Part shown: piece by piece, positions 18,672 to 51,255 of the stretch
How the letters are laid out: every line of letters begins with the position of its first letter
Numbering within the stretch: position 1 is the stretch's first letter
Source: Microbotryum silenes-acaulis
Taxonomy: Eukaryota; Basidiomycota; Microbotryomycetes; Microbotryales; Microbotryaceae
Length of the DNA stretch: 64,000 nucleotides
Direction of reading: 5' to 3'
Assembly: GCA_003665825.1 (NCBI GenBank)
Contig: QPFY01000006.1
Coordinates: 186,001-250,000, forward strand
Translations under genes and position numbers: made by a program
The notes under the pieces: model-generated
The model's input: the letters and a program-made list of their open reading frames with translations, nothing else
What the model was told of the DNA's origin: nothing
Databases searched by the model: none

Positions 18672-18960
18672 AACGAAGCCTATCCTCTGGGATCTCTCCT
18701 GTACGCGCACGCAGGTGAAGTTGACGGGAGGGAAGGGGGGGCGGGGAGGCAAGTCTATGCTACGTGCGAACTTAGGTCGGGCGAGCAGGTCCCAGGTTGA
18801 AGCAAGGGTGGGCCGCCCCCCTGGGGGTGGCGCGCATGCGCTTAGAGTGGAGTAGGCGAGAGAAATGCCTGTTCGCTTCTGCACCTTATTCGTTTCGCTC
18901 GAACGGCAGTGCTCATTGCCTCTACACTCGCGAAACTTTTCGACCCTATTGGTACCGACA

Positions 18961-20214
18961 ATGACGACTGCTTCGACCTCTACCAACGACCACGCCGCGC
19001 CCTCCTCTACAGAGTCGCCGGCGGCAACGATGGGTGGCGCCGCGGGCGTGGCCCCGCAATTGCCCCCGATGCAACTCTCCGGCGCCCTGGACACGACGGC
19101 TTGTACCACTTACGATGGCGCCTTGTTCGGCATCTCTGCCGAAATGATCAAGTGGGCGAAGGATCGCAAGGATCCTCCGATGTCGTGTCTGTCACGACAC
19201 CAACAAGTGAAGATGAGTCTGGATTATGGTGTGGGTTTCAAGGCGCGGATGGAGGCGGGTCTGGTCTTCGACGGTTGCCTGCCGCGCACGCAATGGCAGG
19301 ACGCGCGCTATTCCTATGTGCTCCTTGTCAAGGAGGCGGTCGACCCGATGACGGCCTCGATCATCGTCGGAGGCGCACTGTCGCCTTCGGAGATGTTTGA
19401 CCGACACTTCGAGTCCGTTGCGATGCGGACCTGTGACTCGAACTGGTTCATCATGCGTAAATACGACTTGACGGTCCGTTCTTTGTGGTGGTCGGGATTC
19501 AAGGTCTCGAAGATAAAGGTTTTCGGACCCTTCGACCAGTCGATCATGGCTCAGGTCTCGGCTGCCCTCAACGTGCCCGCCATGAAGTGGGCTGAGCTCG
19601 CGGCCGAGCACCAGTCATCGTGGGCCCGGGCGATGGAGCGCCCGGTGGACGATCTCATCGAGGCGCGTGGCCGCATTCAAGCCATGGAGGAGGCAACGCT
19701 GGGGGGCGAGGATTGGAAGCCGATTCTTCCTCTCTTCAAACCTGTAGTGGTTGCGCCTGCAGCGGTAGTCGTAACTTCGGTGGTTCCGCTCAGCGCTGCG
19801 GCTGCCGCGCCTGCTGCCGCGCCTGCCACCGCCGTGTCTCCGCGAAAAAGGGCGTTCGAGACGGCCGGCTTTCGAGGCTCGCCAGCCCGTCCGGGATTCC
19901 CGTTTCGTGCCAGTGCGAACACCTCCTTTCCCACGGTTTCAAGGGACTTCAAGGCCATCAAAGGCACGGGCTCCCCCGGCTACCAGATGTGCGCAGGTTG
20001 CGGAAGCGACGAGCACAACGTTTCCGCGTGCCGGTTTTTCAACCAAACCTTGTTCGCTCTCCAAGGTGGTGGGCTCGTCGACAAGTCTGACGCTACCAAG
20101 CGATACTGCACCAACTATAACGTCAGGGGTTGCGTCCAATCCTGCGTTCGTGAACACGCGTGTTCTTTCTGTAGAGGCCAGCACGAGGCTTATATCCACG
20201 TCGGGTCCGCATGA
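18961..20214 (+). CDS. DIRS element gag-like ORF1
   Basis: An open frame of 418 codons including stop, still intact, starting at ATG 18961; the same frame has an upstream ATG at 18865. The C-terminal part carries a CCHC knuckle, C-x2-C-x4-H-x4-C (CAGCGSDEHNVSAC), then a Cys/His-rich stretch (CTNYNVRGCVQSCVREHACS) typical of DIRS/Ngaro gag-like proteins. The middle is Ala/Pro/Val-rich. The stop at 20212-20214 is followed at once by another open frame, 19907-20650, of no clear identity. By family it binds the element RNA. Confidence 0.75.
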   Translation: MTTASTSTNDHAAPSSTESPAATMGGAAGVAPQLPPMQLSGALDTTACTTYDGALFGISAEMIKWAKDRKDPPMSCLSRHQQVKMSLDYGVGFKARMEAGLVFDGCLPRTQWQDARYSYVLLVKEAVDPMTASIIVGGALSPSEMFDRHFESVAMRTCDSNWFIMRKYDLTVRSLWWSGFKVSKIKVFGPFDQSIMAQVSAALNVPAMKWAELAAEHQSSWARAMERPVDDLIEARGRIQAMEEATLGGEDWKPILPLFKPVVVAPAAVVVTSVVPLSAAAAAPAAAPATAVSPRKRAFETAGFRGSPARPGFPFRASANTSFPTVSRDFKAIKGTGSPGYQMCAGCGSDEHNVSACRFFNQTLFALQGGGLVDKSDATKRYCTNYNVRGCVQSCVREHACSFCRGQHEAYIHVGSA

Positions 20215-20731
20215 CCGAGTTGGCGCGTCTGCATCACCATCCTTTCCCTCTTCTCGTGTCGTGCAGTCTCTTCCGCCCCGTTCCGATGTACCAACAACCT
20301 CCTCGGGTCCCACTACCGTGCCGGGCTTTCCTACTTCGCCTTCGATTCCACCGTCTTTCTCGACTCCGTCTCCGATTCTCGCTCCCGGCGCGCCTCCGAT
20401 TCCCGCTCCCGGCTCGCCTCGAATTTGGCCCTCACCGCACGCTAAATACTCGTTTCCCGTACGATTCGAACCGCTTTCTGTGGCCCTTTCTGAGGTCGTT
20501 ACCTCTCAGGCATCGCGTCGCGTGCCTCCGTTCTCTGGTTCAGGGGTCGAATCCCCCACCGTTCGCGCTTCCTCACGTCCGCGTACGTGTAGATGCCCGG
20601 TCCCGACGGACCGGCTGGGCGTTGCCCCTTCCTGCGCAGCCGAGGGCTGACGTGCTGGATTTGAATTTCCAGACCCGCTAAGCGCTGCTCCGGCAGACCC
20701 TCCGAGCATCAGCGACCTGCCCATCCACGGG

Positions 20732-22650
20732 GTGGGCAGGGCTCCACTCGAACCTGTCGCGGCCGGCAGCAAAGGAGACGTCCCGTTCGTGCCTTCAATG
20801 CCCGCGCCGGGCTCTTTGCCAGTGCCCGAAACTTCCGCTCGCATGCGAATTATGGCCCGCGAAGTCGACTCGTTCCATGATGCGATGTACAAGATTGTTA
20901 CGCCGCTCGATGCTGGTGCGTTCGAAGCCAACATTAAGGCACTCGCAAGGGTCGCGCACGTCGCGCCGTACCTGCCCGCTATACCGAAGCAGATCCGAGA
21001 GGGCTTTGATTTCGGCATCAAGGACCCTCCGTCGGAGCGTCACATTGCGAAGAACGCACCGCTCAGTGAGGAGCAACAACTGGTCATGGACGGCGAGATG
21101 GAGCGCATGCTCGATCTCGGGTACATCGCGGGCCCGTACGACAAGGACGAGCTCGAGGCCGCGATCGGTCCTTTCCGCACGAATCTGATCAGCTATGTGC
21201 CGAAGTCAGTAGCGCCCGGAATGCCGCCGAAGTGGAGATAGATCGAAAATCTGTCTTACCCCACGGCGAAGCCGATCGATCGAACCACAGACCCTGACGA
21301 AGCGAATCATCCGTCGACGAGCGGGCATGGACCGTCGCAACGGAGTGGTTCGTCTAGCCGTCCGGAACTCGTTTCCATTAATGACGACCTGAAGTCTGCG
21401 GACTTCCCTTGCCCATGTTGTACCGCAAGTTTCGCGAGCTTCCCTTGACGGCGGAAGTCTGCGGTTGGGATTTTGCCGATGCGTTCTACCAACTCCCTTT
21501 GCGATGGGACCAGCGATCGAGCATGTGCATCTTGTGGCGCGGCCTCATCTTCGTACGACGAGTCCCATGCTTCGGTGGCAGGACTACTCCCGGTGTCTTT
21601 GGGAACGTTGCGGACCTGACCCAAGACTTGGTCGAATGGAAGTTCCCCGGCGTGTCAATCTTCAAGATGGTTGACGATGTTTGCGCGGTCCGAACGTCGG
21701 ATGTCATATCGCAAGAAGCCATTCTTCATTTCGTACGATCCCTCGGCTGGCGCCTCGCGGAGCAGAAAGGCTTCACGTGGACACGTCAATTTGTCCACGT
21801 CGGGATTGAATGGGATTTGGATCTAATGACCGCGACGGTCACCGATCAGAAGCGGCTGCGCTACATCGACAAGATCGACGCCTTGGTGAAAGGCAGCCGC
21901 GCCGATCAGAAGGAACGCTCAGAGGTCGAGTCGGTCACTGGGTCGTTGGGGTATGTCGCCTACATCCTACCTGCATTACGGACCCATCTCAACCGTCTAT
22001 ACAGACAGTGTATCGCGTACGGGGACCGGAAGGCGGTTTTGCGGGCGCGTCGCCTGGACCGTCGCACGTACGATCAACTCGAATACTGGAGAAGGTTCCT
22101 CTTGTCGGAAGGCCCATTCTCCACGTCGTTCGAGGCCCTCCCGATCCCATCGAAGCTTGCGCTAGCGTCGGATGCCTGTATGCACGGACTAGGCATCGTC
22201 ATCAACGGATACTCCGCGTACTTCACTCTCCCCGAGGGGTAGACGGATCTGCCACCGCCTCGACACTCGGTCTCAATCACGAACGCGGAGGCGTGGGCAG
22301 TCGAGGCGCTGGCTGAGGCTGCGTTACGAATGTCTAAAGATGATATACATTTCGTTCTACAATGCGACAACACCGGGTTTGTGCTTGGATGGAGGAAAGG
22401 GCATTCGATGAATCCCTTGTTGAACTCGTCGCTTTCAAACCTGCGCAGCCTTGAGGAAACTCGAGGTGTGAAGTGGTCGATTGAATACATCAACACGAAG
22501 GTGAACCCCGCGGACGTCGTGTCCCGGCAGCCAGACCGCCCGCGGCAGTACGAACCGTTCCCGTTCATGATCGCGCACCCACTGTCGAAGTATCCGGCGG
22601 GGCGCGAGTTGCTGCTGGCGGCGGGAGAGCCCCTGTGGGCGATAGGCTGA
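20732..22650 (+). pseudogene. DIRS reverse transcriptase / RNase H, disrupted
   Basis: RT palm landmarks are present: GWDFADAFYQLPL (first catalytic Asp), FKMVDDVCAV (the DD motif) and KLALASDACMHGLGIV opening the RNase H-like part, which ends near SIEYINTKVNPADVVSRQ. Lesions are a TAG stop at 21239-21241, a frame change between there and 21409, and a TAG stop at 22240-22242. The reading frame is otherwise well kept over 1.9 kb. This suggests fairly recent inactivation, or point mutation by a genome-defence process. The intact product is not reconstructed here. Confidence 0.85.
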
Positions 22651-45953: not shown

Positions 45954-46591
45954 ATGATGATGCGCTTCGTTCTCGCCCTCTCGTTGCTTTTTGCTCAGGC
46001 CCAAGCAATCACTTTCACGATGACGTCGGGTACCGGTCTGTTTGTGGGCCCCGACGGCACCGGATCTTCGTTCGACGTCTCGAGCTACTCCTTCGCCCCC
46101 GGCGTTGTTACCAGCATCATCATGACATCGGGCAGTGCGGCGGGCGTGGGCAAGCCGCAGCTCTCGACCTTTTCTTTTGAGAAGAAGTTCGACGCCTCGT
46201 CGTTCCCCTTGTACCGCGCCATCTTGAGTGGCAGGTCGTTGGAACCAGTAACGCTCACCGTCAAGGATCCGAACAACAAATTGGCTTCGACCACGATCTT
46301 CACGTTCACGGGCGTACGTGTCCTGGGACTGGAACGATGGCTCAGGTGATCGCGGTCGACTTGTAGTTTCGTGAATGCTTACCTTCCCCCTGGGTTTTAC
46401 CTTCATATTTATGTGCGCAGGTCTATGTCACCCAAATTGGGACTACGGCCACAACTGCCGATAACGCGGCTACGGAGACCTTCCAATTTGTCTTCCAGAC
46501 CATCCGCATGGATTACACGCCAGCCTCGAATGGCAAGGTCCCCAAGACCGCGACCCTCTCATATGACGTGACAAAGAACACAGTCCAATAG
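45954..46591 (+). CDS. Secreted Hcp-like protein (type VI secretion tube fold)
   Basis: Two exons, 45954-46313 and 46421-46591 (donor GTACGT, acceptor GCGCAG, phase 0), 176 residues. It starts MMM with a signal peptide (RFVLALSLLFAQAQA, cleavage before ITF). The mature part follows the order of the bacterial Hcp family: a short first strand, FDVSSYSF, STFSFEKKFDASSFPLYRAI, LSGRSLEPVTLTVKD, a strand then VYVTQIGTTATTAD, ETFQFVFQTIRMDYTPAS and ending LSYDVTKN. The FxFxKxxDxxSxxLxxAxxSGxxxxxxxLTV pattern and the E-x-F-x-F ... Y-x-P block are the Hcp hallmarks as I know them. The intron, signal peptide and fungal neighbours argue against bacterial contamination. Function is unknown; Hcp assembles hexameric rings in bacteria. 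Residues 1-2 may not be used if a later ATG initiates. Confidence 0.8.
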
Positions 46592-47336: not shown

Positions 47337-48403
47337 ATGTTAGGTTTTTTATCCCTTTCGAGGGCCATGCTCCGCAACCACGCGCTGCGCTCGGGCGTCC
47401 AGCCGATGGTTCGCCATGTTTCGACCGCGCGGACTCCGGCGGCGACAGCTCGCACGTTGCGCGCCGCTAAGTCGGCGGTCTCCGCCCCCCGCCGCCGTTT
47501 GGCAGCCATGGCGACCATGGCAACCTCAGCTACCCCCATTCCCCTTCCCGCTTCTGCGACAGCGGCGCTGACGACGAACGTCCTCTCCGCCAAGTCCGAG
47601 CTCCCCGAGTTGCTCGATGTGCTTCGCATCACCCGTGAGGCCATGACCCTCGACATCCCGACGTCGCTCCCTGAGCTTACGAGCGACGGCCTCGCCAACA
47701 TTGTCTTTGGCCAAGGTGACTTGAGTTTGAAACCTGGATCGCTTTGGGCGCGCGAGAACCTGAAGGCGTTCGGTCAGCATCAGGCGAATCGCATCGCTGC
47801 CGAGGTCGTTCTCCTTGCGATGCAAGTTCACAAAGTGGAGACCCAGCCGGGCAAGAGGCGCGCGAGCCTGGCTACCTTGTGAGTCGACATTGCGGGCGAA
47901 GCTCGGCATGTGTGCTGCCTAAATCGAAGCTTGAAGCGCTGCCTATGCATCGATACTGATCGAAGATCGTCCTTCATACCCTTACCTTTCCCAGGTCGCA
48001 ACGCATGACGAAGAATCGCATATTCGCGCATTGGGCCAGAGAGGTCGGCATCGTGGAGGAACTCAAGCGCTTCGGTGGACCTACGGCCAAACCTTTGGTG
48101 AAGACTCTGGCCGAGAATCTGGAGACGTTCATCGGCGCGCTTAGTCTGGTGCAAGGCTCGTCGGCGCCGACTTTTGTCTTGGCCCCCCTCATCTTGCGCG
48201 AGTACAAGCGCATGGTCGGGTTCGTGGATTCTCCCACCGCGGACTCAGATTCAGTTACCGAAGGTACTCGTGCTCCTTACAAGTCGTGGGTTCCCAATAC
48301 CATCTCCGCGAGCGACTACCAGGACATTCAGATGGCTCTCCAAGACTCGAACAAGCCAGCCCGTGCCACCAAAGTCCGTACCCCAAGGAACCCGCCACGG
48401 TGA
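47337..48403 (+). CDS. RNase III-fold protein, paralogue 1 (degenerate catalytic sites)
   Basis: Two exons, 47337-47878 and 47995-48403 (phase 2), 316 residues. The N terminus is basic and Arg/Ala-rich, suggesting a mitochondrial targeting sequence. The rest resembles an RNase III domain: ENLKAFGQHQANRIAAEVVL aligns with the family signature helix, followed by MTKNRIFAHWAREVGIVEEL and LAENLETFIGALSLVQG, the second signature region. Compared with active RNase III, the second Glu and the GD Asp of the signature are Lys and Gln, and the Asp of the LAD-x-x-E motif is Glu. It is likely inactive as a nuclease, as in mitoribosomal proteins of this fold. It may be one, but this is not shown. A downstream intron could give another C terminus. 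Confidence 0.75.
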
Positions 48404-49832: not shown

Positions 49833-51255
49833 ATGATGCACATCACCCCCCGTTCCAAGCTCGTGTTCCGCAACCAGGCGTTGCTCTCGGCGTTCCGGAC
49901 CAAAAACCGTCCCGCCTCGTCCTTGAGGACCCCTGCCGGCACGCCCTGCTCGCGCGCCCCTGAGTCCTCGCCTGCCGCTCCTTGCCGAGCTTTGGCGACG
50001 ACGACGACGACTCCTACCGCCGAGTCCGCCGATCTGATGTCGCCGATCACTCCGATTGCTTTGGACACCGTCATTCCCGAGCCAACGATGACCGAAAAAA
50101 CGACCACCACCTCCGACGAGCTCGAGCTGCCGTCGCTGCCTGAAGCCCTCCTCGTTACGCGGCACGCCATGTCCTTTGGCATCCCCAAAAGAGTCCCCTC
50201 CCTGGCCAACAAAGGACTCGCCGAGGTCGTTTTCGGTCAAGGTCGGAAAGGTTTGACACCCGATTCGCCGTGGTTCCCCAAGCATCTCGAGTTATTGGGC
50301 GATCGTGAAGCGAGTCGAGTCGCGTCGCAAGTCCTTCTGCTCGCGCTACAAATGATGGAGAATACTCGCAAGCCCCGACAAAAGACCTTGAATATGAGCC
50401 AATTGTAAGTCATCTTCGAGAATAGCCTAGGTCAATAATCAAGATGGAAGTGCTGAGCCAGCCCTTCTACTGCTTTATTCAAGGTCAAGCGCCATGACGA
50501 CCAATAAGATCATGTACGAGTGGGCTCGCGAGGTCGGCCTAGTCCAGGAGCTCGAACGCAAAGGTGGGATGAGTGAAGGCCAGATCAAGACCATTTCAAT
50601 CAAGAAGCTCGCCGACCACTTTGAAACTTTCCTCGGCGCTCTTCACGTCGACCAAGGTACCGCAGGGCCGGACTACTTCTTGGCTCCCCTGTTCGTGCGC
50701 GAGTATAATCGCCTGTTGGGGGTCAACCTCCTCCTCGATGGTGCTTGTAGCGAACGCTCGCCTCAAGCTTTCAAGGTTTGGATTCCCAATACGATATCGT
50801 TTGAGGACTACAAGGATATGCAAGGCGTACTCGAGGCTTCGAAGCGAACGACGGGAGAGACGGATCGATTGAACACCAAGAGAACTGATGAATCGACAGC
50901 GACCGCTCCGACGCCAACTTCGGTCCCGTCCAAGCCGTTGTTCCCTTCCAAGCCCGCGGCGAGCGTCAAGACAAGCGGACCTGTGTCGAAGACACCCAAA
51001 GCCAAGAAGTCAAGCGTTTCTACCCCGCTTTCAGCGCCCTCGTTGGAGAAGAAGGCCAAAGCGAACGAACCCAAGTCCAAGCCCCAGCCTCAAGTCACGC
51101 CAAAGAAGCCGATAGCGCCCAAGTTGCCGCAGATCAAGCCCAAGAAAGTCTCGGTCGTAATGGCCAAAGCTTCTGTTGTCGAGACCAAGGCGATTCCGAC
51201 GACGGCAGTTCAGTCGGGCAAGAAGGGTAGAGGTGCTCGCGCCAAGGCCGAGTGA
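49833..51255 (+). CDS. RNase III-fold protein, paralogue 2 (most catalytic acids kept)
   Basis: Two exons, 49833-50404 and 50484-51255, 447 residues, with the intron in the same place and phase as paralogue 1. The presumed targeting N terminus is basic and Ser/Thr/Ala-rich. Signature region: FPKHLELLGDREASRVASQV, keeping the second Glu and the GD Asp but with Lys at the first Glu. Then MTTNKIMYEWAREVGLVQEL and LADHFETFLGALHVDQG, keeping Asp and Glu of the second site. A long Lys/Pro/Ser-rich tail of about 130 residues replaces the double-stranded-RNA binding domain seen in classical RNase III; paralogue 1 lacks this tail. Mitochondrial location and RNA-related role are inference. Confidence 0.78.

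Follow-up and report, generated by a model that had tools for sequence, protein, structure and literature searches.

An intron-containing gene for a predicted secreted Hcp-family protein in the plant-parasitic fungus Microbotryum silenes-acaulis

The window, here the whole 64,000-nucleotide stretch of the Microbotryum silenes-acaulis genome that was analysed, carries at 45954-46591 (+) an intact two-exon gene whose 176-residue product is homologous to Hcp over nearly all of its mature chain. On balance, we favour the reading that the gene is nuclear and fungal, that it came from bacteria long ago and that it encodes a secreted single-domain Hcp, the barrel of which would be exported to the cell wall or apoplast and possibly forms rings there. 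Hcp has been studied as a component of a bacterial injection machine, being the building block of the tube of the type VI secretion system (T6SS). In the open-access literature, no paper on a fungal Hcp was recognised by its title or the start of its abstract among the matches listed. The terms Hcp, type VI and horizontal are absent from the main text of the Microbotryum lychnidis-dioicae genome paper (PMC4469406), as are Hcp and type VI from an article on Microbotryum effectors (PMC6831777).

Results

Gene structure and predicted product

Exon 1 (45954..46313, +), read from the open reading frame and the splice site, comprises 120 codons and encodes residues 1-120, namely a signal-peptide-like start and the first part of the Hcp domain. 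Exon 2 (46421..46591, +), delimited by the splice reading and the match to the Pfam family PF05638, contributes 56 codons (residues 121-176) and the stop, and includes the remaining Hcp domain and a conserved tail. The two are separated by a spliceosomal-type intron of 107 bp (46314..46420, +; GTACGT...GCGCAG), a length not divisible by three, with a branch-like CTTAC at 46378.

Sixty GT-AG joins giving products of at least 100 amino acids were compared. The 46314/46420 pair ranked first with a profile of canonical Hcps (67.7 bits, against 34.7 for the unspliced reading), and with a second profile, of 21 rows, the donor at 46314 (73.8 bits; unspliced 41.1) was level with a donor at 46320 that adds six bases and two residues (73.9 bits). 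The join to exon 2 contributes signal, as exon 1 alone scored 33.8 bits with PF05638 and the spliced product 51.2. Codon usage was compared with that of nine neighbouring ORFs, which served both as comparison group and as codon reference set: the spliced gene had a CAI-like value of 0.73 and a GC3 of 0.75, the neighbours spanned 0.65-0.73 and 0.64-0.75, respectively, and the five alternative frames of the spliced gene gave CAI-like values of 0.50-0.63. Both the ranking of the joins and the fungal codon usage argue for the two-exon structure with an intron at 46314-46420 proposed in the initial annotation, which is probably correct.

Residues 1-18 (45954..46007, +) form a signal-peptide-like stretch with a hydrophobic core, FVLALSLL, followed by A-Q-A ending at residue 18, a judgement made on composition and hydropathy. 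These features fit the secretory start proposed earlier, and a secretory signal peptide with export through the endoplasmic reticulum (ER) is predicted. The mature chain after residue 18 has 158 residues, with a computed mass of 16.7 kDa and pI of 8.2, and a sequence check found neither cysteines nor N-glycosylation motifs in it.

Membership of the Hcp family

The Hcp domain, as delimited by the Pfam profile, covers residues 39-152 and is split by the intron (46068..46516, +). The spliced product matched Pfam T6SS_HCP (PF05638) with 51.2 bits (E = 2e-13; cut-off 23.5) over profile positions 19-129 of 129, and this was the sole Pfam family matching it up to E = 1. The search had been specified in advance as the check on the Hcp pattern that the initial annotation had read along the chain; it confirms the pattern and excludes the absence of a profile match. 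Two bacterial Hcp profiles built in this study, one of 21 mostly signal-peptide-bearing rows and the other of 38 rows from loci of a scan of genome contigs, gave 73.8 and 67.7 bits, respectively, with the fungal protein; among 2000 shuffled versions of the mature chain the highest score was 8.9 bits.

A single-sequence search of the PDB returned 14 distinct sequences up to E = 1. The top 12 were Hcp-type chains or Hcp fusions (E = 4.5e-7 to 5.1e-4), including three that at first lacked an Hcp name, two of which are titled Hcp or T6SS elsewhere and the third of which (4tv4) is uncharacterised; the last two matches were gamma-glutamyltranspeptidases (E = 0.05 and 0.6). With the NCBIfam TssD model TIGR03344 the fungal protein scored 20.2 bits, far below the cut-off of 58.9. 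As it matches PF05638 above threshold and TIGR03344 below it, the protein is considered a member of the Hcp family and not a standard T6SS tube protein. It shares with the T6SS inner-tube protein Hcp/TssD (PF05638; 1y12 from Pseudomonas aeruginosa) the Pfam family, core positions and the tail, at approximately 24-28% identity, but differs from it in its signal-peptide-like start, its intron, the TIGR03344 score, the loss of an I-x-G-E...H stretch, and a genome in which no TssB was found.

Conserved positions and predicted fold

Conservation was assessed on 67 bacterial rows, 11 long-branch rows of the original 78 having been dropped. Among the 28 columns conserved in at least 60% of the bacterial rows, the fungal protein is the same in 17, similar in 3, and different or gapped in 8. 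Residues K77, D80, S83, L86, G93, E139 and Y152 are retained, and the I, E and H of the bacterial I-x-G-E...H stretch are missing, with a shorter loop at that place. This loss, together with the TIGR03344 score under the cut-off, suggests that contacts between ring subunits may be lost. The initial annotation had also placed a strand-loop at the position of the Hcp extended loop; the alignments are compatible with this (MTSGSAAGVGK in correspondence with MHSGSGGGAGK), and the part of the claim that stands is a likeness at the level of sequence.

A model of the exon 1 product only, with 74 of 84 database Hcps in the alignment, had a pLDDT of 52.6, its better part consisting of a strand at 72-77 and a helix at 81-92, and a structure search of the PDB with this poor model gave three matches, all with E > 5. 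For P0014, a bacterial relative with a signal peptide, folding together with 41 others gave a pLDDT of 82 and 1y12 as the top structural match (E = 6e-15; target TM 0.83-0.85); the 50 rows listed in that search were Hcp or Hcp-containing, save 4tv4, titled only as uncharacterised. The Hcp beta-barrel is predicted for the fungal chain because of its homology to Hcp, and not from its own model.

Bacterial relatives and phylogeny

Of 582 pattern matches in the scan of genome contigs, 41 encode a relative; judged by record titles, these are from Pseudomonadota, plus one Akkermansia record. In the phylum of the Akkermansia record, taken from its title as Verrucomicrobiota, 28 of 288 genomes have PF05638. 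In that of a genome titled Variovorax (G002), 26 of 398 match the fungal protein at E <= 1e-3, the best being G002 itself (47.7 bits, 30% identity), followed by a genome at 36.3 bits. A database protein search with an Hcp alignment (A2), which scored only the 7993 candidates sharing most words, yielded 84 proteins, all with PF05638, and the five rows with an organism were all bacterial. A tblastn search of the fungal protein in plasmids gave no match at E = 0.01, and none of the 18 and 55 pattern matches obtained in viral contigs with the fungal protein and a different alignment (A1) as queries, respectively, was confirmed.

For the tree, 168 rows were collected, of which 167 passed the length rule and 79 were left after thinning at 62% identity. 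The fungal protein fell within the Hcp tree, in a fork of 21 rows (83% SH-aLRT) mixing secreted and T6SS Hcps. Its end branch measured 2.18 changes per column; it belonged to no starred set, and no starred branch joined it to the secreted bacterial Hcps. Bacterial ancestry of the fungal gene is the natural reading, because every other full Hcp met here with a stated source was bacterial, and the same observation lends support to the transfer from bacteria suggested in the initial annotation.

Secreted Hcps in bacterial genomes without a TssB match

The sheath gene TssB was present in 12 and gave no match in 16 of the 28 Hcp-positive genomes of the phylum taken as Verrucomicrobiota. With each genome represented by its best Hcp gene, 12 of the 16 TssB-less genomes showed a secretory start, as against none of the 12 TssB-bearing ones (Fisher p = 6.6e-5, kinship ignored), by a hydropathy rule anchored at the starting methionine and written after the result of a looser rule had been seen. 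Three of the four TssB-less exceptions (L055, L070, L071) have a stretch that looks hydrophobic on inspection but misses the rule, and the fourth (L077) has none. The looser rule marked 26 of 43 frames of the phylum, 61 of 84 database proteins and 1 of 40 others, with at least one false positive. Of three Pseudomonadota genomes searched for TssB, two were positive and G002 had three Hcp matches but no TssB match, so that the lack of a TssB match can also stem from an overlooked gene or from gaps in the assembly. Bacteria seem to possess a class of secreted Hcps that are apparently T6SS-free.

The initial annotation described Hcp only as a T6SS ring protein. In the phylum sampled here, signal-peptide-bearing Hcps occur in genomes without a TssB match, so the transferred gene could have come from a source other than a T6SS. 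The fungal protein resembles such bacterial Hcps (e.g., L054, L058, P0014), whose annotation often reads simply T6SS Hcp, in that a secretory start precedes the Hcp domain and the genome gave no sheath gene, and the profile of secreted bacterial Hcps fits it slightly better than the canonical one (73.8 against 67.7 bits). Identity to them is 24-28%, and several of the bacterial loci hold two adjacent genes, whereas the fungus has one. Both features by which T6SS-free secreted Hcps were recognised here, a composition-based secretory start and a genome in which no TssB was found, are present in the fungal case.

In genomes without a TssB match, Hcp genes were often seen in side-by-side pairs (L054, L055, L057, L058 and others), of which the second has a longer open frame, of approximately 280-800 codons. 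For granules of Candidatus Accumulibacter, T6SS_HCP-domain proteins have been listed among the secreted or extracellular, possibly aggregating proteins, and proposed as subunits of tubular proteins (PMC12019908).

Counterpart in Microbotryum saponariae

Among 130 candidates, the sole database protein matching the full query at E <= 1e-3 was a 113-residue protein of M. saponariae (P0001). Its first 30 residues are identical to those of the window protein at 28 positions; the difference lies in the remaining 83, which have no significant counterpart in the window, match repeats and have no Hcp domain listed. This tail matches 111 places elsewhere in the window's own genome, none of them inside the window, and its two halves match mostly at different places.

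Of the 21 matches beginning at the first or second residue of the tail, 12 were fetched (L089-L100). Eight copies align to L089 over 314-329 bp with 97-99% identity, and the other three align in pieces; AG immediately precedes the start of the P0001 tail in the 11 repeat copies shown, and ARAGORN reported a tRNA or tRNA-like gene in all nine near-complete copies. The repeat is approximately 315 bp long, near-identical across these nine copies, and bears a tRNA-Ser-like gene (e.g., L096:543-856). Given these tRNA genes, it is regarded as a tRNA-bearing, SINE-like element. We infer that the P0001 model joins the same first exon, by splicing, to this SINE-like repeat; either the gene is disrupted in M. 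saponariae or the model is a misprediction.

Other fungal members were sought with residues 20-176 as query, and none of 106 candidates matched up to E = 10 in a search that needs shared five-residue words and by our estimate may miss homologues below approximately 50% identity. Records near the source genome may be left out of the searches, and the lack of other orthologues therefore proves little.

Genomic setting

The gene was the only Hcp copy found in profile and sequence scans of the 29.85 Mb fungal genome, exon by exon. A scan of the same genome for TssB (PF05591), which ignores introns, gave no match, with a positive E. coli control; a control scan for PF00106 gave 22 matches, which shows that such scans succeed in this genome. 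For the T4 gp19 tube family there was no match in the genome and likewise none in the controls, so that this negative carries no weight.

The gene lies in a eukaryotic neighbourhood: six of ten neighbouring ORFs scanned have Pfam matches, to pieces of TFIIIC upstream, RNA polymerase second-subunit domains and Vps36. The neighbours covered by the scans (10 + 4 ORFs) included no recognisable linked gene for a toxin, immunity protein or cargo, and Rfam gave no match in the window at gathering scores. Two neighbouring ORFs, at 48005-48403 and 50494-51255 (+), neither with a Pfam match, are 42% identical over 124 columns, which points to a tandem duplication in the segment that immediately follows the Hcp gene. 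The region 18865-22242 (+) holds ORFs that look retroelement-like by eye, two of which were scanned and had no Pfam match up to E = 0.01.

Discussion

According to the reading favoured here, a bacterial Hcp gene would have been acquired long ago and would later have gained an intron and fungal codon usage, and its protein would be exported through the ER. Outside the cell, Hcp barrels would pack edge to edge into rings or short tubes that have a structural or host-facing role in the wall or in the plant apoplast; the protein would then act like the apparently T6SS-free secreted bacterial Hcps, and not like a T6SS tube. Extracellular rings or short tubes in such a structural or host-facing role have, in our estimate, a little less than an even chance of being real. 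More tentatively still, a eukaryote may export a ring-forming Hcp whose rings or tubes work at the surface or in the apoplast as carrier, wall element or host-facing factor, without an injection machine. The ring reading draws support from the Hcp fold predicted for the bacterial relative P0014, the 17 of 28 conserved columns kept, the secreted bacterial relatives without TssB, and the bacterial precedent described in the Accumulibacter study (PMC12019908). It is weakened by the lost I-x-G-E...H stretch and the low TIGR03344 score, by the poor exon 1 model with its lack of a meaningful PDB match, and by the break of the M. saponariae model after 30 residues.

The change of the I-x-G-E...H stretch and of first-strand residues, together with the long end branch of 2.18 changes per column, would also suit a monomeric secreted effector, in which the barrel is a stable scaffold that has lost its ring contacts and acts alone on the plant or its surface, and a small secreted protein is in keeping with the biology of a plant parasite. 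We regard this as unlikely, albeit worth serious consideration: the strongest core positions, from K77 and D80 through S83, L86 and G93 to E139 and Y152, are kept, and the protein has no cysteine, unlike the Cys-rich families reported among Microbotryum secreted proteins in PMC4469406, a difference that is weak evidence. That the transferred gene is a relic, no longer needed and being lost in the genus, could be read from the annotated M. saponariae model, which enters a repeat after 30 residues, and from the lack of any other orthologue found. However, that model is possibly mispredicted, near relatives may be absent from the searched databases, and the copy in the window is intact, with neighbour-like codon usage and its core residues kept, making a relic improbable.

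Hcp rings bind effectors in T6SS bacteria. A secreted Hcp-like protein might by analogy bind effectors or parts of bacterial injection machines as a decoy, or carry antibacterial cargo; only the fold speaks for such a role, none of the 10 + 4 neighbouring ORFs scanned was recognised as encoding a toxin, an immunity protein or a cargo, and we hold it to be very unlikely. Bacterial contamination, misassembly and a chance match, for which no point in favour was found, are rejected with near certainty. Against them speak the intron, the fungal codon usage, the large size of the fungal contig and the TFIIIC, RNA polymerase and Vps36 genes in the window, as well as a 5' end in common with an annotated Microbotryum protein and the shuffle control, with its best score of 8.9 bits.

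Under the favoured reading of an exported, bacterial-derived barrel, the fungal protein looks like a eukaryotic member of the secreted, apparently T6SS-free Hcps. The protein is small and expressible, which makes ring formation without a machine directly testable, and with orthologues mapped the gene would provide a datable transfer from bacteria to a plant-parasitic fungus. If the reading is true, a secreted eukaryotic Hcp, alongside secreted bacterial Hcps in genomes where no sheath gene was found, would mean that the Hcp barrel has a role beyond the T6SS.
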